From positions 1 through 24,811 of IMG/VR virus record IMGVR_UViG_3300027852_000162: a DNA stretch of 24,811 nucleotides. One strand, 5' to 3'. How positions within the stretch are numbered: the first letter of the stretch is position 1; the number at the start of each line of letters is the position of its first letter. The stretch comes from a virus. The notes under the pieces are model-generated. The model worked only from the letters and a program-made list of their open reading frames with translations, was not told where the DNA came from and did not search any database. The position numbers and the translations under genes are program-made. This document shows positions 11,344 to 20,869 of this stretch, piece after piece.

Positions 11344-11628
11344 ATGAATAAGACGGTAACAATAGGTGGGACAGGATTCCATGGAGATTATTCAGAAAAG
11401 TTCACAGTAGACGAGTCAAGAATTTGGGACAAAGCACGAATTGAGGCTACTTACAAAGAACCTATGTGGTTCCCTGAGATGATGGTGGCGGTAGGCGATG
11501 ACACTATAAAGAGGCTTACCAAAAACGCTTGTGGTATGAGTGACTGCTGCTGTAGTAGTGGTCCCCAAATATTGGACATTGATGGCGATTTGTATCTAAT
11601 CGGGTGCGAAGAGGTGCAAGGGGAATGA
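11344..11628 (+). CDS. Hypothetical protein with a cysteine cluster
   Basis: The 94-aa protein starts with the leader GAGAGGAGAACAAG that also precedes the 11035 gene. The body reads TVTIGGTGFHGDYSEKFTVD, WDKARIEATYKEPMWFPEMM, VAVGDDTIKRLTKNACGMSD, then CCCSSGPQILDIDGDLYLIG, CEEVQGE. Five cysteines (ACGMSDCCCSSG and a later GCEE) could bind a metal or form a redox site. No family recognised. It overlaps the next start by ATGA. Confidence 0.55.
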   Translation: MNKTVTIGGTGFHGDYSEKFTVDESRIWDKARIEATYKEPMWFPEMMVAVGDDTIKRLTKNACGMSDCCCSSGPQILDIDGDLYLIGCEEVQGE

Positions 11629-11957
11629 ATACTTCTTATTTTGCGTCAACATTGTTGAAACAAGTGTCCTTAGATAGACAAATTTCTATCGCACGTTATC
11701 CTTCACGGTGGTGGAAGGGTAAGAGAACTTACTTATCTTTGGCTCCTACAAAAGAGATGCTTAAAATGTCGGAGGGTGATTATAATAAAGAATATGCTAA
11801 AATACTGAGCGCACTAGACCCGAAATCGGTCTATTCTGACTTAGGTGAAGATGCGGTGTTGTTGTGTTGGGAAAAGACTGGTAGGCCGTGCCACAGGCGC
11901 ATAGTAGCTCAATGGCTTGAGGATGAGCTGGGTATTATTGTGGAGGAACTTGTGTAA
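11625..11957 (+). CDS. DUF488-like protein
   Basis: ATG at 11625, overlapping the previous stop, with AAGGGG just upstream; an in-frame GTG at 11604 is less likely. The 110-aa protein begins TSYFASTLLKQVSLDRQISI, then ARYPSRWWKGKRTYLSLAPT, a helix DYNKEYAKILSALDP, and ends DAVLLCWEKTGRPCHRRIVA followed by QWLEDELGI. The LLCxEKPGxxCHRRxVAxWL motif is the hallmark of DUF488-type proteins, in which the Cys and His-Arg-Arg group is strictly kept. The biochemical role of the family is not settled. Its TAA stop is immediately followed by the tRNA gene. Confidence 0.65.
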   Translation: MNTSYFASTLLKQVSLDRQISIARYPSRWWKGKRTYLSLAPTKEMLKMSEGDYNKEYAKILSALDPKSVYSDLGEDAVLLCWEKTGRPCHRRIVAQWLEDELGIIVEELV

Positions 11958-12034
11958 CCGAGGGTAGTCTAGCGGTAGGACACTGTGTAATTCAACACAG
12001 AGAAGGGATGGTTCGAATCCTCCCCCTCGGTCCA
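11958..12034 (+). tRNA. Irregular tRNA gene, anticodon uncertain (UUC or UCA)
   Basis: A cloverleaf can be drawn: acceptor CCGAGGG/CCCTCGG, T8 and A9, D stem GTCT/GGAC with loop AGCGGTA, anticodon stem CTGTG/CACAG, variable AGAAG, T loop TTCGAAT, discriminator T and an encoded CCA. Two positions are abnormal. The anticodon loop has eight bases (TAATTCAA) instead of seven, or six if a T-A pair extends the stem. The T stem GGA-T-GG/CCTCC holds a bulged T. Counting two bases on the 3' side gives anticodon UUC (Glu) with A at 33. Keeping a U before and an A after gives UCA, the UGA-reading anticodon. It may be functional, a frameshift-type tRNA, or decaying. Confidence 0.72.
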
Positions 12035-12039
12035 AATAA

Positions 12040-13407
12040 ATGAACGAATATAAGATATTTATGGGCAACACGCCCAGTAGAGGCAGGGGCTTTTTGGCAG
12101 AAGCCCTTTCTTTGTTTTTAGAAGAACACAGGCGCTTGTATATACCATGTTGCGGCCAACTATCAATTGCGCATGTGGCTATCGCTTCCGGATGGAAGCA
12201 AGAACAGATTATAGCTAGTGATGTTTCTTTATTTACCACTGTTCTAGGTTACTATATTACACAACAAAGCTTGGAGCATTTAGCTATCCATGTTGATGGT
12301 GAACCGGTTGACCCCTTCGATTATGCAGGAGTGCTCTACTCTATCAAACTTAAAACAGTTGCGGCACGATCTAAACATTATTACCAGCAGTTGCTTATTT
12401 CTGACTTCGTAAGTCGGAAAAATGAGCATTTAGCAAAGCTACAAGAATCTCTTACAGCCTTTGATAAATTGCGCGGCATTACTTATCGATTACAAGATTT
12501 ATTTACAGAAGCTAGTGGAGCTATAGACCATCCTGATAATGTTATATGGCTAAATCCGCCAGGCTACTATAAGGGCTATCAGAAAATGTATGACACGGGT
12601 GGTGCGATTCAATGGAACGAACCGGTTTATACAGAGTTTCATCCAGATAGTAGTCACGACTTGTTGCGAGAGATGGGAGAGGGTAAACCTGCTCGATTCT
12701 TATGGTGTAGATACAAAACCCTGAACAACCTTGATAAAGAATACGTGGTATTTGCTGATGAAAAAGGGGGCGGTAAGTGGGAGTATATGCTATGCAATCA
12801 TCACGAAGAACTAGCGTCTATAAAAAAGCTGGGCTGTTCTTCGTCAGAGGCCAGTGTGTCCCACAACTGGAAGCTTCTTCGTGCGGATCAAGAAATTACG
12901 ACTAGTAGTAGTGTTGCGTTTAAAAAAGTGGATAAACGGACAGCGTTGTATTATAGGGATTTACTTATCCATAAATTAGGTGTTACCAATGCGCCTATCA
13001 ATTATTTGCTTGTAATCGACGAGTCTGTTGCTGGTGTCGTTGGGACGATGGCGGGACAGTGTTATGAGGGAAAGTTACGCAACTCTTTCGATGGTTATGT
13101 GGAAGAGTGCTATGGCATGACTGTTTACACTAAACACTACCCGTATCTTAATAAGCTACTAATGATGTTGATTAAAAGCGAGGAGTTTTTGCGTCAATAT
13201 GACACCTTCTTGTTTAAGCCGCTTGGCATAGACACAACATGCTTATGCCAATACCCTGAGCTGAAGATAAACAGGGGTATATACAAACTCACGAGCCGCG
13301 AGTATAAGAAAAAAACAGGTATTTATAAGCTCCGATATCGAGGGGAAAAGACACCGCAAAACTACAAGGAGGTTTTGGCGGAATGGCTGAGACGATACGC
13401 ACAGTAA
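12040..13407 (+). CDS. Methyltransferase-like and GNAT-like fusion, probable DNA modification/anti-restriction protein
   Basis: The 455-aa protein has an N-terminal SAM-methyltransferase-like region: LYIPCCGQLSIAHVAIASGW (33-52), then EQIIASDVSLF as the acidic second strand, and VIWLNPPGYYKGYQKMYD, an NPP motif at 172-174 as in adenine methylases (NPPY-like). The C-terminal half (about 290-455) has YYRDLLIHKLG, INYLLVIDESVAGVVGT and the conserved end NRGIYKLTSREYKKKTGIYK, LRYRGE, reminiscent of acyltransferase-type (GNAT, Mom-like) phage proteins. An adenine-modifying anti-restriction role is inferred from this and from the ParB-like gene that overlaps it by 25 bp. No ribosome site precedes ATG 12040: the tRNA ends five bases before it. 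ATG 12061 is an alternative start. Confidence 0.6.
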   Translation: MNEYKIFMGNTPSRGRGFLAEALSLFLEEHRRLYIPCCGQLSIAHVAIASGWKQEQIIASDVSLFTTVLGYYITQQSLEHLAIHVDGEPVDPFDYAGVLYSIKLKTVAARSKHYYQQLLISDFVSRKNEHLAKLQESLTAFDKLRGITYRLQDLFTEASGAIDHPDNVIWLNPPGYYKGYQKMYDTGGAIQWNEPVYTEFHPDSSHDLLREMGEGKPARFLWCRYKTLNNLDKEYVVFADEKGGGKWEYMLCNHHEELASIKKLGCSSSEASVSHNWKLLRADQEITTSSSVAFKKVDKRTALYYRDLLIHKLGVTNAPINYLLVIDESVAGVVGTMAGQCYEGKLRNSFDGYVEECYGMTVYTKHYPYLNKLLMMLIKSEEFLRQYDTFLFKPLGIDTTCLCQYPELKINRGIYKLTSREYKKKTGIYKLRYRGEKTPQNYKEVLAEWLRRYAQ

Positions 13408-14114
13408 TAGAATTGTCTCCAGGGTTGGAGTTGTGGCTGGTGCCAGTAGAAGAACTCAAAGAGCAAGACCTTAACGCCAGAGGTATGTCGTCGATAATGT
13501 TTCAACGACTCGCAGAGACTATCAAGCGTGATAGCCGGCTAGAGTCTTTGCCTTTTTGTGCTACGACAAAGAAGGGCATAGAAATACTTTCCGGTCATCA
13601 TCGCGTCAGAGCCGCTAGAGAAGCAGGATTGCCGAATATTTATACCTTAGTAGATACTACAGGGCTGACTAGTTCACAGATGAAGGCGAAGCAGGCGGCA
13701 CATAACGCTATTAATGGCACCGATGACGCGGCCCTTCTTGAGGAAATCTATAAGCAAATAACAAGTATAGAAGATAAGCGAGAATCTTTTTTGATTAATG
13801 TAGATAATCAATTAAAAGGTCTTAAGGTGAACGAAATCACGTTAGATGCTGAGATGAAAACCATCTACTTAGCGTTTGTTCCTGAATACTTTGATAAATG
13901 GAATCACTTATTGGATAGTGTTGGCCACCTAACTGATCAAATAGCAGCAAGCGATCTAGTTTTGCACGAAAGGTTCCGCAAGGCCATGAAAGTTGTAGGG
14001 AAAGCCTATGATATTAGGTCTGTGAATGCTTTAATGTGTAAGTTCATAGATATAGCCGAGGCGGTGGAGGCGAGTGGTGCCAAAGAAGATAGGCCGACCC
14101 AGAAAACCGATTGA
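13383..14114 (+). CDS. ParB/Srx-fold protein
   Basis: The 243-aa protein has a ParB-like N-terminal domain: LWLVPVEELKEQDLNARGMS, FQRLAETIKRDSRLESLPFC and ILSGHHRVRAAREAG, with the GHHR nucleotide-binding motif at 71-74. The rest is helical (QAAHNAINGTDDAALLEEIY and onward), ending in IAEAVEASGAKEDRP. Phage-encoded ParB-type domains of this kind usually accompany DNA-modifying or terminase genes and act as CTP- or DNA-dependent accessory enzymes or nucleases rather than in plasmid partition. It overlaps the upstream fusion gene (25 bp) and the terminase small subunit (38 bp), so the three are tightly coupled. GGAGG lies upstream of ATG 13383. Confidence 0.75.
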   Translation: MAETIRTVIELSPGLELWLVPVEELKEQDLNARGMSSIMFQRLAETIKRDSRLESLPFCATTKKGIEILSGHHRVRAAREAGLPNIYTLVDTTGLTSSQMKAKQAAHNAINGTDDAALLEEIYKQITSIEDKRESFLINVDNQLKGLKVNEITLDAEMKTIYLAFVPEYFDKWNHLLDSVGHLTDQIAASDLVLHERFRKAMKVVGKAYDIRSVNALMCKFIDIAEAVEASGAKEDRPTQKTD

Positions 14115-14472
14115 CTGGGATGAGTTCGAGAAGTTGTGCCTATTGCAGTGTTCCTTGAACGAAATTTGTCTATGGTTCCACGTCAGCGACAGATGCTTAG
14201 AGCGAGGATGCAAAGAACACTACGGATTGCCTTTCGTCGAGGTATTCGCAAAAAAAAGAGTGGGTGGCCTCATCTCGCTACGTAGAAACCTGTTTAAACA
14301 GAGCGAGACTAATCCAGCATGTGCTATATTTTTAGCCAAGAACCTATTAGGGATGGCAGATAGACAGGAAGAAGTAGAGAATGGTGGCCCAACTCTTCAG
14401 ATAAACATCACTGTAACATCCAGCGAGGCTAAAGATGTCACAAAAAAAATCATGGCAGGGGTGGGCACGTAA
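14077..14472 (+). CDS. Terminase small subunit-like protein
   Basis: GTG at 14077 is selected because GGAGG (14066-14070) is at the right distance; GTG 14074 is also in frame. The 131-aa protein begins VPKKIGRPRKPIDWDEFEKL, then CLLQCSLNEICLWFHVSDRC as an N-terminal HTH, a helix region RRNLFKQSETNPACAIFLAK, NLLGMADRQEEVE, and ends TLQINITVTS. The GRPRK start, HTH and NLLGMxD segment are typical of small terminase proteins that recognise phage DNA and load the large subunit. It overlaps the large terminase gene by 38 bp. Confidence 0.72.
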   Translation: MPKKIGRPRKPIDWDEFEKLCLLQCSLNEICLWFHVSDRCLERGCKEHYGLPFVEVFAKKRVGGLISLRRNLFKQSETNPACAIFLAKNLLGMADRQEEVENGGPTLQINITVTSSEAKDVTKKIMAGVGT

Positions 14473-15709
14473 TGCGGAACGTGTTATTGATATGCGCACC
14501 ACTGCGATATACAGACAGAATGCCGCTGCATGGGTTGATCCTACTATTCGTAGAGTGTTTAACGAGGGTGGAACCTCTAGCTCAAAAACTTGGAGTATTC
14601 TACAGCTCCTTATACTAATAGCTACTCACGCAAAGAACGATCTGCTAATTTCTGTAGTTTCCGAATCGCTTCCCCATCTCAAACGTGGTTGCATCCGTGA
14701 TTACATAGCGATAATGGGAGGGGCTTTTAATTCTTACGCCTATAACAAATCTGAGCACATTTACACTTTTGGTAAAGCCAAAATCGAATTTTTCCCCGCT
14801 GATGAACCTAGTAAATTGAGAGGTGGACGGCGGGACATCTTGTTTCTCAACGAAGCTAATAATGTAGATTATGATTCCTACCGCGAGCTAGATATCAGAA
14901 CAAAGTGCTTCACATTCTTGGATTGGAACCCCACAAACGAATTTTGGGTTCATGAACATAACTTACTAAACCAGCCAGAGAACGCATATATTCACAGCAC
15001 TTACTTTGACGCACTTGCTGTAATACCCCCCGAGGTAGCGGCTAATATCGAATCGAACAGATACAAGGACCCCAATTGGTGGAACATTTATGGGCTGGGA
15101 AGAATTGGCAAAATTGAGGGCCTTGTATATCCGCATTTCACACAGGTTGATCAATTGCCGAAAGGCGACTACTTTTTTGGGCTGGATTATGGGTTTAGCC
15201 AAGACCCGACAGCTTTAGTGAAAAATGTAGTAATAGGCAACGACCTCTACTCCGAGGAGCTTATATATGAAACAGGATTGACCAATGACGCCATTGCTCA
15301 CCGTATGGACGAGTTAGGAGTGCGGAGGAATTATGACCCAATCTTTGCGGATTCAGCGGAGCCAAAGAGTATCGAGGAGATATACCGCTACGGATTCAAT
15401 ATAAAGCCATGTGAGAAGGGCGCGGGGAGTGTAGAGTTCGGGCACCAACGGGTTAGGCAATTAAATCAGCATTGGACAAAAGGCAGTTTAAATTGTATAA
15501 AGGAGCAACGGAACTTCCGTTATGTCCAGGACAAAAACGGCAGGTATACCGAGAAGACGACGCACATGTTCTCGCACGGGGCAGACGCCCGCCGCTACGC
15601 GATCCAGGGGCTAGGATTAGCAGTCGCCAAGGTAGATCGTCCATCGCCACCGGTGAGGAGCCGAGGGGATGACTTGAGTTTGTGCGGTGTAACCAGGAGA
15701 GAGTTCTGA
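14435..15709 (+). CDS. terL: Terminase large subunit
   Basis: The 424-aa packaging motor has an ATPase domain with Walker A GGTSSSKT at 45-52 and Walker B ILFLNEA at 135-141. A coupling motif WNPTNEF follows at 164-170. The C-terminal nuclease domain has YFFGLDYGFSQDPTALVK with Asp 251, FADSAEPKSIEEI with Asp 306, and MFSHGADARRYA with Asp 384, the three metal ligands of terminase nucleases. It pumps and cuts phage DNA at the portal. The start sits inside the small subunit gene; its TGA overlaps a CTG that probably starts the portal gene. Confidence 0.93.
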   Translation: MSQKKSWQGWARNAERVIDMRTTAIYRQNAAAWVDPTIRRVFNEGGTSSSKTWSILQLLILIATHAKNDLLISVVSESLPHLKRGCIRDYIAIMGGAFNSYAYNKSEHIYTFGKAKIEFFPADEPSKLRGGRRDILFLNEANNVDYDSYRELDIRTKCFTFLDWNPTNEFWVHEHNLLNQPENAYIHSTYFDALAVIPPEVAANIESNRYKDPNWWNIYGLGRIGKIEGLVYPHFTQVDQLPKGDYFFGLDYGFSQDPTALVKNVVIGNDLYSEELIYETGLTNDAIAHRMDELGVRRNYDPIFADSAEPKSIEEIYRYGFNIKPCEKGAGSVEFGHQRVRQLNQHWTKGSLNCIKEQRNFRYVQDKNGRYTEKTTHMFSHGADARRYAIQGLGLAVAKVDRPSPPVRSRGDDLSLCGVTRREF

Positions 15710-17859
15710 GCCCCACCAAAAAAAAGAACAACACCGTTTCTACCGTAGAAATTGGTTCACCAGGAACTCAAATCTTCAGTGGAATTATTACTGGTGAAGA
15801 ATATAACACCGACCTTACAGGCTCCGCAGGTAGGGCCATCTACGAAAAAATGCGGCGCTCGGATGGCACAGTTAGTGCGGCTGTCAGAGTGTGCGTATTG
15901 CCGCTACTTCGAGCGAATTGGACAGTAGAACCCGCCAGCGAGGACAAGCAAGACAAACTTATAGCTGAGCACGTGCAGGAAAACCTCTTTGGTGGTATGA
16001 CAATCACGTGGGAAAGCTTCTTACGACAAGCCCTTACCCTTATGTTGAGCTTCGGCTTCTCGATGTTTGAGAAGGTTTACGAGGTCCGTGACGATAACAA
16101 ATATTACTACAAGAAGCTCGCACCGCGACTCCCCAGGACTATATATAAGTGGTATGTCGATGACGAAGGCGAGCTGACTGGCATACAGCAATTAACTTGG
16201 AAGGGTGAAAGCTACGAGTTTATCGATATCGACGCAAAGTATCTTGTCGTATTCACGAACGACAAGGAGGGCAGCAATTTCGAGGGCAGTTCATTGCTTC
16301 GTCCCGCTTATCAGCACTGGTATTACAAATCCAATATGTATCGGATTGATGCGGTGGCTGCCGAAAGGCACGGTGTCGGCTTGCCCGTTTTCAAACATCC
16401 GGCAGGAGCTTCCCAAGATGACCGCGATGCGTTAGACTCGATAGGTAAGCAACTCCACTCGCACGAGCGCATGTATGTGCGGCTAGCCAATGATTATGAC
16501 TTTGACATCGTCGGCGCAGGATCGGGCAAGGTCAAAGATATAATCAAAAGTATTGAGCATCATGATCAACAAATATCAAGATCAATTCTTGCTCAATTTT
16601 TGACATTGGGAAGCGACGGAACGGGCAGCTATGCCCTATCTCGCGACCAGTCGAGTTTTTTTCTCATGGCCTTGCAATCAGTTGGCGCGAACATTCGCGA
16701 CACGATGGATAGATATGTAATTAAGCCATTGGTGGACTTGAATTACAATGTGGATCATTACCCCAAATTATCCCATGGTAGCCTAGAGACCAGGGAAATC
16801 CAGAAATATGCGCAAGCTGTTAGTCAGATGGCTACATCTGGCATTATCACCCCAGACCTTGAACTTGAGAACGAGGTGCGCACATTATGGAACCTACCGG
16901 AGCGCAAAGAGCCGGAAGAGGTGCCCGAACCAGTGCCCGAACCAGTAGCCCCGATTACTCCGCCAATTGAAAAACCGCCAATCGTCGAACCTCAAGACGA
17001 TGACCAGCAGCCTGTTGAGCCAAAGCCTAAAGCCGAACAGCAGAACGCTGAAGTAGCATATAGCTACGCTGATATAGTCCGGCCAGAGGTGGAAGCTTAT
17101 GTTCAATTTGCCGAAATCACAAAAAAACTAGACAGCGGCATAGACACTATTGTTGCAGCCACCGAGTCCGTAAAAAAGAAGCAAATCGGCAAATTAGTAG
17201 AGATAGCGAGTAAATTAATATCTTCTCGTAACATGGAGAAGTTGGACGATATTGATGTTCCATACAAGTCGGAATTATCGGCAGCTATCCAGGGAGTCAC
17301 TACAGACTTGTTCCGCTATGGGCGCAAGCAAGTCAAGGCCGAATTAGCCAAGCAGAAAAAAGAGACCGCGTTGAAAGAAGAGCATATTCTTGACCCTCTT
17401 GATATCGAGGGTGAACAGCAAGTTAAGGCATTTCTACGATCCCGCGCCAAGGCTTCAAGTTCGACGATGGCGGCACGTCTTAAGGCTACGCTAACATTCG
17501 AATCGTTGCAACAAATGAGGCAAGGCGTATTAGATGAGGAGCTACTAACCGCCAAGCTCACCGACCTCTCGGACAGGGAAGTCAAAAAAAGCGCGCAGGC
17601 TTCTGTGTCGGAGGCGTTCAATTTTGGGCGAAGCATCCAGGCGCGCAAACAATCCGATGAGATATCAAGAGCTATCTATTCTGCTGTGATGGACCCAGGA
17701 ACTTGTGTTGAATGTCGCAAAATGGACACTAAAGAGTGGGACTTTGACGATCCTAAGACAGATGAATATGCGGCAGGGAACACCAAATGTGAGGGGAATA
17801 CTTATTGTCGCTGTGTCCTTATATTTGTTCATAAGAGCGAAGTGAAGGCAGCCAAGTAA
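15706..17859 (+). CDS. DUF935-type portal protein fused to a MuF-like domain
   Basis: The N-terminal part (to about 410) is a Mu gp29/DUF935-like portal: IGSPGTQIFSGIITGEEY, MRRSDGTVSAAVRVCVLPLL, WTVEPA, FGFSMFEKVYEVRD, GSSLLRPAYQHWYYKS, RHGVGLPVFKHP and ILAQFLTLGSDGTGSYALS. A proline-rich linker (about 405-445) leads to a second helical part (about 450-717) ending DPGTCVECRKMD and YCRCVLIFV, the cysteine-bearing end of MuF-like head proteins. In Mu these are separate genes. The portal forms the vertex ring through which DNA enters. No ATG fits the start: AGGAG (15695-15699) points to the CTG at 15706; a GTG at 15682 lacks a well-placed ribosome site. Confidence 0.9.
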   Translation: MSPTKKKNNTVSTVEIGSPGTQIFSGIITGEEYNTDLTGSAGRAIYEKMRRSDGTVSAAVRVCVLPLLRANWTVEPASEDKQDKLIAEHVQENLFGGMTITWESFLRQALTLMLSFGFSMFEKVYEVRDDNKYYYKKLAPRLPRTIYKWYVDDEGELTGIQQLTWKGESYEFIDIDAKYLVVFTNDKEGSNFEGSSLLRPAYQHWYYKSNMYRIDAVAAERHGVGLPVFKHPAGASQDDRDALDSIGKQLHSHERMYVRLANDYDFDIVGAGSGKVKDIIKSIEHHDQQISRSILAQFLTLGSDGTGSYALSRDQSSFFLMALQSVGANIRDTMDRYVIKPLVDLNYNVDHYPKLSHGSLETREIQKYAQAVSQMATSGIITPDLELENEVRTLWNLPERKEPEEVPEPVPEPVAPITPPIEKPPIVEPQDDDQQPVEPKPKAEQQNAEVAYSYADIVRPEVEAYVQFAEITKKLDSGIDTIVAATESVKKKQIGKLVEIASKLISSRNMEKLDDIDVPYKSELSAAIQGVTTDLFRYGRKQVKAELAKQKKETALKEEHILDPLDIEGEQQVKAFLRSRAKASSSTMAARLKATLTFESLQQMRQGVLDEELLTAKLTDLSDREVKKSAQASVSEAFNFGRSIQARKQSDEISRAIYSAVMDPGTCVECRKMDTKEWDFDDPKTDEYAAGNTKCEGNTYCRCVLIFVHKSEVKAAK

Positions 17860-17867
17860 GGGGAATT

Positions 17868-19112
17868 ATGTCAAATTTAAATGTTGTTGATATTGATGAA
17901 CTGGAAATTCTGGCCGTAGGGACATGGAAAGGCTACCCAAGTGAAAAAACGTTCACATTGAAAGACCTACAGAATATGGCCACGGCGTTTGACGAATTAT
18001 CAGCGATAACAAATTACGAGCCTCCCGTGAAGCTAGGGCATGATAAAGGCCAAAAATTATTACAGGTAGACGGCTACCCTGCTGCCGGATGGGTGAGAAC
18101 CCTTAAAGTTAAGGGCGAAAAACTCGTTGCTTCACTAGGGCAGGTCCCCCAAAAAATAGGCGAGATTGTAAAAGTGGGGGGATGGCGGAAAGTATCCTCC
18201 GAGACATTAGAGAATTACGAAGAGGGGGGCAAAACTTATCCCTTAGTGCTTCGTGCAATTAGCTTGTTAGGTAACGATATCCCTGCAGTGAAAACTATAG
18301 CGGACATACAAGCTCAATACTCGCAAGGCGAAGTATGCCCTCAGATCACAATTTACGAAATGGCGGAAGGCGCGGGAGTCCCAAAGACAGACTTAGAGCG
18401 GGTGATGGCTCATCATGGCGTGACTGAAGAGGAAGCCAAAAAGATGATGGCCGCCAAACCCATTGAAGAATTATTGCCGCCTCGTGGGACTAAAGTTGGC
18501 TCACTCGACGAGGCAATGAATAGCCTAAATGCATGGGCGATTGGTCCGGAACTAGCCACCAAAAGCGCGGCCAGTAACTCCGAGATTAAGGCATACTTGC
18601 AAGAGGTTCGTGCGAAGTTAAAGGCGCTATCGACTAAAACCGAGAATAATCAGAATACAGAGGAGGTAGACGATATGAATGGAGTGAGGGAAATGTTGGC
18701 ATTGAATGCCGATGCCTCCGAGACGGATGTCCTAGAGGCAATCCGCAAGTTGAAGAGCGCGCCCGAGAGCGTGACATTGGCAGAGCACACACAGGTAAGC
18801 GATCAGGTCAAGAGCTTGACGCAAAAACTCGCAGAGCGTGATAGAGACGACGCGGTAGGGTCCGCGATCAAGCAAGGCAAAATAATGCCTGCTCAAAAAG
18901 AATGGGCCGACGCCTATGCACTGAGCGACGCCGCAGGATTTGCGACGTTCGTTGCTGGGGCTCCCGTAGCGGTGAAGTTGTCAGCAGAGCGTGGCGGTAA
19001 TACTGCTCCTGCTGTGGAACTTACAGAACAAGAGATAGCCCAAGGAAAATATCTAGGTATCACTGAAGAGGAATTGATTGCATTTAAGACAGAGAGCGAG
19101 GAGGTAGGATAA
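17868..19112 (+). CDS. Mu I-like prohead protease/scaffold protein
   Basis: The 414-aa protein starts with the domain seen in Mu-like I proteins: IDELEILAVGTWKGYPSEKT, FTLKDLQNMATAFDE, PPVKLGHDKGQKLL, GWVRTLKVKGEKLVASLGQV and WRKVSSETLENYEEGGK. This region is the head-maturation protease. Residues from about 230 on are helical and charged, as in scaffolds, with a coiled-coil stretch around 310-325. Residue 270 is a Met preceded by a perfect AGGAGG (see the nested gene). The product should cleave scaffold and capsid subunits during prohead maturation. AAGGGGA precedes ATG 17868. Confidence 0.85.
   Translation: MSNLNVVDIDELEILAVGTWKGYPSEKTFTLKDLQNMATAFDELSAITNYEPPVKLGHDKGQKLLQVDGYPAAGWVRTLKVKGEKLVASLGQVPQKIGEIVKVGGWRKVSSETLENYEEGGKTYPLVLRAISLLGNDIPAVKTIADIQAQYSQGEVCPQITIYEMAEGAGVPKTDLERVMAHHGVTEEEAKKMMAAKPIEELLPPRGTKVGSLDEAMNSLNAWAIGPELATKSAASNSEIKAYLQEVRAKLKALSTKTENNQNTEEVDDMNGVREMLALNADASETDVLEAIRKLKSAPESVTLAEHTQVSDQVKSLTQKLAERDRDDAVGSAIKQGKIMPAQKEWADAYALSDAAGFATFVAGAPVAVKLSAERGGNTAPAVELTEQEIAQGKYLGITEEELIAFKTESEEVG
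18675..19112 (+). CDS. Nested scaffold protein from an internal start
   Basis: Inside the protease gene, in the same frame, AGGAGG (18661-18666) lies eight bases before ATG 18675. Initiation there gives a 145-aa protein beginning MNGVREMLALNADASETDVL and ending with the helical C-terminal part of the parent. Phage Mu makes scaffold gpZ from an internal start of gene I, and lambda makes Nu3 inside C, so the arrangement fits a separately produced scaffold. The ribosome site is encoded by the ordinary codons Glu-Glu-Val. Confidence 0.65.
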   Translation: MNGVREMLALNADASETDVLEAIRKLKSAPESVTLAEHTQVSDQVKSLTQKLAERDRDDAVGSAIKQGKIMPAQKEWADAYALSDAAGFATFVAGAPVAVKLSAERGGNTAPAVELTEQEIAQGKYLGITEEELIAFKTESEEVG

Positions 19113-19930
19113 TGACAGCATTAGCAGCGGATAGAGAGACCTCCCAGAAAGAACCAGGCTATAAGTCCTACTTGATGGGCACAGACATAATCTATAAAGG
19201 CAGCATGGTTACAGTAGACGCCGACGGCTTGGCAGTCGCAGGGCAAGCGACAGCAGGGCATAAGATGGTAGGCGTTGCGGTGGAGAAAGTGGACGACAGC
19301 GCGGGAGCAGGAACGAAATGGTGCAGGCTCTATACAGAGGGCCTTTTCTTGTTTGTTGCGACCAGTATTGCCCAATCAATGGTAGGTCAGATGATGTATC
19401 TGACCGATGACCAGACTTTTGACGACGTGCCAGGAACTGTCACAATTCCGTGCGGCATACTGGTGGAGTATGTCAGCGCAACATCCGGATGGATTGATAT
19501 TGCCCCCGCAGTGGTGGCAGACCCACAGGACCGGAAGCGCATTATCACGTTAACCGATGACTACACCTGTTTAGCGGAAGATAGCGGGACAATTTTCTTG
19601 ATTGGCACGGATGCTAAAACCGTGACATTGCCTGCAACTCTTGAGGGGTTAGAGTATACCTTCGTTAATATCGGGGCGGCTGGCAATAACATTATTACCA
19701 TATCACCCAACGCCTCCGACAAGATACAAGGCAATCTAGCTTCTTCCGTCGGAAAGAACGCGGACGCTACGACCGCCGACGGCCTAGTAGATATCTGCGC
19801 GGGCTCCGATGATGGCGACTTAGTAAATACTAAGGCGACCGCTAACGTGGGAGATAGAGTAACGTTAGTTGCTGACGGAAGTGCGGGGTGGTGGGTATCT
19901 GGAGGCGTAGGTATTTGGGTAGGTTCCTAG
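19112..19930 (+). CDS. Head decoration protein with an added C-terminal beta domain
   Basis: The N-terminal 130 residues match DUF2190-type capsid cement proteins: LAADRETSQKEPGYKSYLMG, TDIIYKGSMVTVDADGLAVA, TAGHKMVGVAVEKVDDSAGA and CRLYTEGLFLFVATS. Family members of that kind are usually near 110-130 aa. Here a second beta-rich part follows (about 145-272: ITLTDDYTCLAEDSGTIFLI, VTLPATLEGLEYTFVNIGAA, VTLVADGSAGWWVSGG), a domain also seen appended to other phage surface proteins. It probably projects from the capsid. Start and preceding stop overlap as TAATG. Confidence 0.75.
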   Translation: MTALAADRETSQKEPGYKSYLMGTDIIYKGSMVTVDADGLAVAGQATAGHKMVGVAVEKVDDSAGAGTKWCRLYTEGLFLFVATSIAQSMVGQMMYLTDDQTFDDVPGTVTIPCGILVEYVSATSGWIDIAPAVVADPQDRKRIITLTDDYTCLAEDSGTIFLIGTDAKTVTLPATLEGLEYTFVNIGAAGNNIITISPNASDKIQGNLASSVGKNADATTADGLVDICAGSDDGDLVNTKATANVGDRVTLVADGSAGWWVSGGVGIWVGS

Positions 19931-19951
19931 ATTATGAGAGGAGACCATTAA

Positions 19952-20869
19952 ATGGCAGTTGTAACATCTGACTTTTTGGCGGCACTAGTCACCAATTACA
20001 AGATAATTTTCAAAAAGTCACTGGGAGAGAATGCGAGCATGTCGGACTCTTGGAAAAAAGTGTCTACGATTATGCCCAGTGATACCGACAAGGAAAGCCT
20101 GAATTGGCTGGGTGCAACCCCGCCAATGTCCGAATGGAAGGACACAAGAAGGCTTCGTGGCTTGCGTGATTTTGATTACACGCTTACCAATAGGCATTGG
20201 GAAAACACTATTCCAATATCGCGGGATGCATACAGGGATAACAAATACAAGCATATTCCAATCCGCATTAAAGGGCTTGCAAAATCATGCCTGCGAAATC
20301 ATACCAAAGAGCTGTTTAGCTGGTTAGACGATGGCGAAACAAACGTAGCTTATGACGGAACCGCCATGTTTGCCGATACGCGCACCATCGGTGATAGCTC
20401 AAACATCGACAACCTTATAGCAATGGCTTGTTCAGGTTCGGCGGCTGAAATCAGGGCCGCAGTAGCGGCAGCGCAAGAGAAAATGAGGCTGTTTCAAGAT
20501 GATTGGGGCTACCCTCTGAACATGCAACCCGATACAATCGTGTGCGCTCCTGAGATGGAGATAGCTATCAAGGACGCGCTTTTGCCAGGAGTGGCAGGCA
20601 CAGTCAGGCCAGAGCTTGCTTTCGTCAAAGACATCATTGTTACCCCTTGGATTGATTTGGACGCAACGGACTGGTACATGCTATGCACCACGGAAGAAGT
20701 AAACCCGCTGATTTTCCAGCTCCGACAGAGTCCACAGTTCACAGCATTAGACAACCCGAATACTAGCGACAGCGTGTTTTTCAATAACATGCTTTACTAC
20801 GGTGTTGATGATCGGTTCGCGGTGGGCTTCGGCGACCCAAGGACAGCAATTAAGCTCAAAGACGCTTAA
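19952..20869 (+). CDS. Major capsid protein, Mu gpT-like
   Basis: The 305-aa protein matches Mu-like major head subunits: MAVVTSDFLAALVTNYKIIF, VSTIMPSDTDKESLNWLGAT, PMSEWKDTRRLRGL, FDYTLTNRHWENTIPISRDA, FSWLDDGETNVAYDGTAMFA, and a C-terminus FNNMLYYGVDDRFAVGFGDP. Length, lack of a long N-terminal delta domain, and position after protease and decoration genes agree with an HK97-fold gpT-type capsid. It forms the icosahedral shell. AGAGGAGA precedes the ATG. A GC-rich hairpin follows the stop. Confidence 0.92.
   Translation: MAVVTSDFLAALVTNYKIIFKKSLGENASMSDSWKKVSTIMPSDTDKESLNWLGATPPMSEWKDTRRLRGLRDFDYTLTNRHWENTIPISRDAYRDNKYKHIPIRIKGLAKSCLRNHTKELFSWLDDGETNVAYDGTAMFADTRTIGDSSNIDNLIAMACSGSAAEIRAAVAAAQEKMRLFQDDWGYPLNMQPDTIVCAPEMEIAIKDALLPGVAGTVRPELAFVKDIIVTPWIDLDATDWYMLCTTEEVNPLIFQLRQSPQFTALDNPNTSDSVFFNNMLYYGVDDRFAVGFGDPRTAIKLKDA

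Follow-up and report, generated by a model that had tools for sequence, protein, structure and literature searches.

A degenerate tRNA gene is linked to a DAM-like/GNAT fusion gene in a candidate DNA hypermodification module of phages

The window, i.e. the 24,811-nt stretch of viral DNA analyzed here (IMG/VR record IMGVR_UViG_3300027852_000162), carries a gene for a fusion of a DAM-like and a GNAT domain, which is preceded by DUF488-like and tRNA-like genes and followed by ParB-like and terminase genes (Table 1). This gene order recurs around the fusion gene far more often than expected by chance, and the tRNA is very probably a functional part of the module. As judged from the sequences, the most plausible role of the module is DNA hypermodification. 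On balance, we favor an account in which a dedicated, non-decoding tRNA would supply an amino acid for transfer to a DNA base by the GNAT half.

Table 1. Position of the module genes, of domains within the fusion protein and of the adjoining packaging genes in the window
Feature	Position	Strand	Details
DUF488-like gene	11604..11957	+	117 aa from GTG 11604; ATG at 11625; CxE...CHR motif
tRNA-like gene, encoded CCA	11958..12034	+	ARAGORN; Rfam RF00005
DAM-like/GNAT fusion gene	12040..13407	+	455 aa, ATG start
Dam-like (class I SAM-dependent) domain	12058..12807	+	PF22555, E 1.1e-40; Foldseek 2g1p, E 5.9e-5
Motif IV NPPGY	12553..12567	+	residues 172-176
GNAT domain without [QR]xxGx[GA] CoA loop	12907..13398	+	PF22559, E 9.8e-20; own model, pLDDT 90.4
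ParB-like gene	13383..14114	+	243 aa, ATG start; phrog_7405, 1.6e-49; ParB_N, 0.001
Small-terminase-like gene (context)	14074..14472	+	phrog_309 terminase small subunit, 3.5e-4
Large terminase gene (context)	14435..15709	+	PF17288, 3.3e-10; phrog_2, 2.3e-36

The fusion protein and its neighbors in the window

The original prediction had read the fusion protein as a methyltransferase joined to a GNAT-like part. Indeed, Pfam families PF22555 (DAM-like-phage1, "Phage DNA Adenine Methylase-like domain 1"; residues 7-256, 140.1 bits) and PF22559 (GNAT-phage-like, "Phage GNAT-like domain"; residues 290-453, 71.4 bits) both matched far over the cut-off of 27, and both models were also matched by 48/48 aligned relatives. 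The predicted fold agrees with this two-domain reading: AlphaFold2 modeled the whole protein with a pLDDT of 85.7 using 48 homologues, and E. coli Dam (2g1p) was the top match of this model in a Foldseek search of the PDB, in which the rRNA methylase AviRa appeared as well. Sequence searches against solved structures returned nothing useful for the fusion protein or the ParB-like protein. We regarded a SAM-binding fold, an FxGxG-like motif I and a [DNS]PP[YFW] motif IV as the hallmarks of a Dam-type N6-adenine methyltransferase. The N-terminal half resembles Dam in its fold, in its SAM-type, FxGxG-like motif I and in possessing a motif IV, which contains the NPPG that had been noticed beforehand. 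Unlike Dam, however, it has T or G instead of an aromatic residue directly after PP, the motif reading NPPTY in 41/48 relatives, APPTY in 4/48 and NPPGY in the window. Base chemistry and methylation activity of the Dam-like half are therefore uncertain.

A predicted structure of the C-terminal half unlike that of GNATs had been named in advance as a result that would refute the prediction; by Pfam and by predicted fold this half is GNAT-like. Foldseek matched it to GNAT structures in the PDB including the Mom protein of phage Mu (8bv8), in line with the proposed resemblance to Mom. The match to 8bv8 had a probability of 1.00 and an E-value of 4.3e-3 with the whole model, and of 0.99 and 0.012 with the GNAT half modeled alone; these E-values are weak, as are those of about 0.01 obtained with Mom and other GNATs for the C-terminal half. 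A Mom family model was absent from the Pfam and NCBIfam results for the fusion protein, and no NCBIfam model matched it. GNAT enzymes normally use CoA as donor and hold its pyrophosphate in a [QR]xxGx[GA] loop. This loop is also missing in 45/48 relatives, and the pattern matches in the remaining three lie outside motif A.

Downstream, fusion gene and ParB-like gene have 25 nt in common, both ORFs being located where they had been placed originally, and the small- and large-terminase ORFs overlap in turn. The presumed link to packaging is reflected in the terminase genes lying directly downstream, the large subunit being recognized by PF17288 and phrog_2. Beyond it, family profiles matched a Mu-type portal gene at 15682, which is followed by protease and head genes, likewise of Mu type. 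The protein encoded by the ParB-like gene matched phrog_7405 as well as ParB-like phrog families (E down to 2.7e-8), its match to ParB_N being weak (19.5 bits, under the cut-off of 26.3), and an SGHHR motif is conserved in it; it is probably the ParB-type partner that had been proposed.

Upstream, the extent of the module had to be revised. Its fusion/ParB part had been delimited correctly, but the interval omitted the tRNA-like and DUF488-like genes. The DUF488-like protein matched phrog_2450 (5.2e-20) and, below the respective cut-offs, PF22751 DUF488-N3a (1.1e-4, 22.9 bits, cut-off 27) and PF04343 DUF488 (0.0012, 19.9 bits, cut-off 22.2). We take it to belong to a family with a rhodanese/phosphatase-type fold, whose CxE...CHR motif it contains; its C, E, CHR, W and E residues are invariant among 17 homologues. 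The tRNA-like gene starts directly after the DUF488-like stop codon, and a spacer of 5 nt separates its CCA from the start codon of the fusion gene. It was detected by Rfam RF00005 with 42.4 bits (gathering threshold 29; E 4.9e-6) and called by ARAGORN as "tRNA-???" with the four-base anticodon "attc". The acceptor stem is CCGAGGG/CCCTCGG and the discriminator base U73. Two forms of the anticodon arm resulted from folding, one with an 8-nt loop and the other with a 6-nt loop on a 6-bp stem, and the loop names no amino acid. The T stem is irregular; a second pairing register is possible, and it is regular in neither. Consequently, the window tRNA does not qualify as an ordinary decoding tRNA, i.e. 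one with a 7-nt anticodon loop, U33, a purine at position 37 and a regular 5-bp T stem.

Linkage of the tRNA gene to the fusion gene in relatives

To survey relatives, the fusion, DUF488-like and ParB-like proteins were employed as anchors; alignments were needed, as the protein of the window alone retrieved no matches from viral sequences. The gene order around the fusion gene recurs in the phages FP_Brigit and ValentiniPuff, and the viral contigs and prophages that show it number in the dozens; DUF488-like, ParB-like and terminase genes were found around the fusion gene in the window and its relatives. FP_Brigit has the order DUF488-like, tRNA-Lys(CTT), DAM-GNAT, ParB, small terminase, large terminase. 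The ValentiniPuff record has its tRNA-like gene at the right end, which places this gene upstream of gene 1 if the ends are joined. According to profile searches, the DUF488-like gene precedes the tRNA in most relatives, and overlap of the ParB-like gene with the fusion gene is seen in essentially all of them. Related ParB genes were preceded by the fusion gene wherever the contig had room, leaving no fusion-free ParB-terminase loci as a control set.

Of 84 loci with a full-length fusion gene, 80 have this gene preceded by a tRNA-like gene in the same orientation, usually at a distance of 60-250 nt. In one of these (L043) the DUF488-tRNA pair has stayed together 7 kb away from the fusion gene. 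When loci were clustered, linkage was observed in 50/51 clusters at 90% identity, 18/19 at 70% and 12/13 at 60%. Three of the four exceptions (L048, L074, L079) are on contigs that end too soon and have close relatives with the tRNA, and the fourth (L118) comprises only about 2 kb of upstream sequence. Up to three copies of the tRNA are present in the Gly clade (L075, L113-L115). ARAGORN detected 59 tRNAs in the upstream windows (207 kb), all on the strand of the fusion gene, as compared to 7 in the 1,198 kb outside of them, six of which form a single cluster in L056 while the seventh is the displaced tRNA of L043. These matches provide an unbiased check of our scan and catalogue, which were conditioned on a CCG start; the combination of a CCG acceptor stem and NCCA has a background of 0.0018 per kb. 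A ParB-anchored scan added contigs with Lys-type tRNAs (L297-L299, L302-L304). CCG-acceptor tRNA-like sequences were also seen by eye in L290, L296 and L313, of which ARAGORN and Rfam confirm only L296. In one phylum, the GNAT family was present in only 2/299 sampled genomes, making the prophage survey of that phylum sparse.

An origin of the tRNAs as att sites was considered and rejected: they adjoin packaging genes, have conserved oddities and are unlike the tRNAs of the hosts. Among other neighbors, SAM synthetase genes were noted in the vicinity of some 20 loci, and 6 loci (L082, L095, L104, L113, L114, L119) have an MTA/SAH-nucleosidase-like gene close by, which suggests that much SAM is consumed, as would be the case if DNA were modified in bulk.

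tRNA classes and their distribution on the enzyme tree

The tRNAs fall into Lys, Gly and Arg classes, which have the acceptor pairs C1-G72, C2-G71 and G3-C70 (CCG...CGG) in common, a start seen in 0/53 tRNAs of two host genomes. With bacterial tRNA identity sets (PMC9976931) as reference for the bases read by synthetases, the Gly class retains C35C36 (35/35) and U73 (34/35) with any of the four bases at the wobble position, the Lys class CUU (22/22) and A73 (21/22) and the Arg class C35 (12/12); since the anticodon was used for class assignment, and the classes are hence partly defined by the very bases reported, this conservation is partly built in. Only 5/76 distinct tRNA sequences belong to no class.

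Bases required for decoding, by contrast, were frequently lost. U33 is absent in 22/69 module tRNAs and 35/69 have a pyrimidine at position 37, whereas the host control tRNAs have U33 and a purine at position 37 in 53/53 cases each and full T stems in 50/53. Anticodon loops of 6 nt occur in ValentiniPuff, L063, L101 and L122. On its 5' side, the T stem, which is the EF-Tu binding region, has one extra, bulged base in the Lys class of Clostridia phages, in L043 and in the window. Members of the Gly class comprise 65-70 nt before the discriminator and have a short D loop that mostly lacks GG as well as unusual T loops. Fully regular-looking are the Arg tRNAs of Streptomyces and the Lys tRNA of L077. 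These regular forms and the general frequency of tRNAs in phages would accord with ordinary phage tRNAs that supplement decoding. However, this is very unlikely in view of the 6-nt and 8-nt anticodon loops, the loss of U33 and of purine 37, the bulged or rearranged T arms, the shortened Gly forms and the strict position beside one gene. Phage tRNAs can also replace cleaved host tRNAs (PMC7824862), and many module tRNAs are of the Lys type, raising the idea that they serve as decoys or replacements when the host defends itself with anticodon nucleases or attacks tRNAs in other ways. We give this idea equally little credence, because Gly and Arg classes exist, the anticodon loops are altered and the linkage is to a modifying enzyme rather than to tRNA clusters. 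Adjacency to the ParB-like and packaging genes could point to an RNA that serves the ParB/terminase complex in packaging or regulation, but a structural RNA would have no need to keep synthetase-read bases class by class, and we deem such a role quite improbable.

A further alternative regards the tRNA as the substrate, which the DUF488-like and fusion enzymes would modify or process, e.g. at its 3' end or at a base. The persistence of the DUF488-tRNA pair at a distance from the fusion gene in L043 and the Foldseek match to AviRa are in its favor. Overlap with the ParB gene and the position next to terminase point to DNA instead, the closest matches of the Dam-like half are DNA methylases, and retention of synthetase-read bases along with loss of decoding bases fits a carrier better; we therefore rate a substrate role as unlikely.

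To relate tRNA classes to the enzyme, a quick IQ-TREE phylogeny of 51 fusion proteins was calculated. The Gly class forms one clade with a support of 100 and is surrounded by Lys, all Arg-type rows fall into one group (support 89), and the window and L043 form a deep pair with unusual tRNAs. The Lys, Gly and Arg labels need 2 changes on this tree, i.e. the tRNA class follows the phylogeny of the enzyme. Through DUF488, a second, more distant branch was found, in which 17 loci have glycine-type tRNAs in the same place. These tRNAs possess an ordinary GCG acceptor, an NCC anticodon and mostly U73. No tRNA was present between the genes in 14 closely related loci of this branch, in L216/L217 and in L218 (tRNA-less loci: L216-L219, L221, L222, L224, L225, L227-L232, L234-L236). 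Searches of the 17 entire records detected no tRNA over the cut-off in 13. In the remaining four, which are prophage records, only clustered tRNAs near the record ends were found; they score as regular tRNAs and probably belong to the host sequence into which the prophage integrated. More than any other observation, this sub-branch speaks against a phage tRNA being strictly required. Given the ordinary acceptor stem of the second branch, use of the host tRNA-Gly would fit.

The tRNA-less sub-branch also bears on the possibility that the module is a Mom-like system with acyl-CoA or another small donor and that the tRNA is an unrelated neighbor. According to a review on jumbo phages, Mom uses an acyl-CoA such as glycyl-CoA (PMC7824862), and such a donor would be the usual one for a GNAT. 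However, linkage of the tRNA in 18 of the 19 clusters at 70% identity, co-inheritance of its class with the enzyme and disappearance of the [QR]xxGx[GA] loop from nearly all GNAT domains argue against this possibility, to which we assign a low probability. Rather, the dedicated tRNA and the DUF488-like enzyme point to aminoacyl-tRNA, not acyl-CoA, as donor.

Proposed mechanism and relation to known systems

Starting from the domain identities, the gene order, the presence and co-inheritance of the tRNA and its sequence traits, all of which were observed directly, we infer a route from charging of the tRNA through its donor role to DNA as acceptor, a modified product and anti-restriction. A host synthetase would charge the dedicated phage tRNA, with lysine, glycine or arginine in the relatives, while T arm and anticodon loop would keep the charged tRNA out of reach of EF-Tu and ribosomes. 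By its CCG acceptor stem this tRNA may be recognized by the GNAT half, which would take over the amino acid; the tRNA is probably the aminoacyl donor of the GNAT half. The amino acid would then be moved to a DNA base, most likely to N6 of adenine, with the Dam-like half flipping or holding the base and also binding SAM. DNA appears fairly likely to be the acceptor. The ParB-like protein could couple the enzyme to phage DNA prior to packaging; this protein and the adjacent terminase genes suggest that the enzyme works on DNA shortly before it enters the capsid. The DUF488-like enzyme may process an intermediate or the tRNA, and the modified DNA would be predicted to resist host nucleases. As to evolution, we see about even chances that an orthogonal tRNA with a CCG stem left translation and became a carrier solely for a GNAT-Dam enzyme whose role is to aminoacylate bases in DNA, that lineages switched between lysine, glycine, arginine and perhaps other amino acids by changing tRNA identity and enzyme together, and that some GCG-stem lineages dropped their own tRNA and use that of the host.

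The module shares features with known systems. Mom of phage Mu, which carries out adenine N6-carbamoylmethylation, is likewise a phage enzyme with GNAT fold, its structure 8bv8 lying near the C-terminal half. Moreover, by our own chemical reasoning, the group added by Mom has the mass of a glycyl residue, for which reason a glycine donor fits and a rearranging glycyl intermediate is thinkable. In contrast to Mom, the GNAT of the module is fused to a Dam-like domain and linked to ParB-like and DUF488-like proteins and a dedicated tRNA; we know of no Mom system with a tRNA gene. Aminoacyl-tRNA-dependent transferases of the GNAT fold are known, namely FemABX, VlmA, DhpH-C, PacB and Orf11 (PMC12945691). 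These enzymes share with the module the GNAT fold and the transfer of an amino acid from aminoacyl-tRNA to an amine, which is predicted in our case. They differ in possessing two GNAT domains that enclose a substrate cleft (FemX type) and in acting on peptidoglycan precursors or small molecules, whereas Pfam and fold models give the phage protein one GNAT domain next to the Dam-like domain, and its predicted target is DNA. In Staphylococcus aureus, changes in the T arm allow a non-proteinogenic tRNA-Gly serving peptidoglycan synthesis to escape EF-Tu (PMC9976931). The module tRNAs are similar in their T-arm changes and in presumably being kept for a non-ribosomal transferase. Unlike the S. aureus tRNA, they are phage-encoded, belong to several amino-acid classes and lie beside the presumed transferase gene, and their alterations are more drastic, including anticodon loop size, a T-stem bulge and loss of the D-loop GG.

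The protein families as such are already known and catalogued in Pfam. The names of PF22555 and PF22559 presumably derive from the rhodanese-phosphatase superfamily study of Burroughs and Aravind 2023, and DUF488-N3a is a Pfam model of the same series. In the literature searched, we found no paper on a tRNA partner of PF22555/PF22559, on the classes of this tRNA or on its co-inheritance, and none on tRNA-dependent DNA modification or on Mom with glycyl-tRNA. To our knowledge, no DNA modification system includes a dedicated tRNA. If use of glycyl-tRNA by Mom had been proven earlier, the module would be a variant and not a new kind of system.

Should the donor model prove wrong, one would still have to explain why degenerate tRNAs are so strictly linked to one enzyme. 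If the model is true, aminoacyl-tRNA chemistry would be joined to DNA, and the module would provide a set of naturally orthogonal, non-decoding tRNAs. One would also have to ask if glycyl-tRNA is the source of glycine for Mom itself, and amino-acid-decorated DNA would be predicted in the cultured phages FP_Brigit and ValentiniPuff.

Start of the fusion gene

The ATG of the gene encoding the DAM-like/GNAT fusion lies 5 nt downstream of the CCA end of the tRNA-like gene, and no clear Shine-Dalgarno sequence was seen ahead of it. Owing to this short distance, 3' processing of the tRNA would yield a nearly leaderless fusion-gene message.

Closest relative and variant tRNAs

The nearest relative of the window protein is encoded at locus L043 (51% identity), where the DUF488-like gene and the tRNA gene are placed 7 kb upstream. 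The tRNA of this locus carries a CUA-like anticodon and shares the T-stem bulge and D arm of the window tRNA. Gly-type tRNAs occur in two or three divergent copies per locus in L075, L113, L114, L115, L119 and L022, and are adjoined by a tRNA-Trp-like gene in L022 and L114. At L313, found in the ParB-anchored scan, inspection by eye revealed a tRNA-like sequence with a CCG acceptor stem, an enlarged D arm and a 6-nt anticodon loop (CATGGG), which was matched neither by ARAGORN nor by Rfam.

Neighbouring genes

Genes related to SAM metabolism accompany the module in several loci and are listed below together with further features.

Features of the window and of related loci
Feature	Position or loci	Remark
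tRNA CCA end to fusion-gene ATG	window 12034-12040	
Mu-type head genes (portal, MuF-like, Mu I protease, gpT)	window 15682-20869	after terminase
Short ORF	window 869-1315	C-terminus with weak AP2-domain match
tRNA	L043:3079-3153	
tRNA-like sequence	L313:1-520	
SAM synthetase (MetK-like)	L002, L052, L063, L075, L088, L094, L113-L115, L120, L127 and others	1.2-5.5 kb upstream of module
MTA/SAH-nucleosidase-like	L082, L095, L104, L113, L114, L119	

GNAT loop in the Gly clade

Fusion proteins of the Gly clade (e.g. L019, L022, L024) lack about a dozen residues of a GNAT loop, around window residues 340-350. This loop is a candidate for an element that binds the amino acid or the acceptor.
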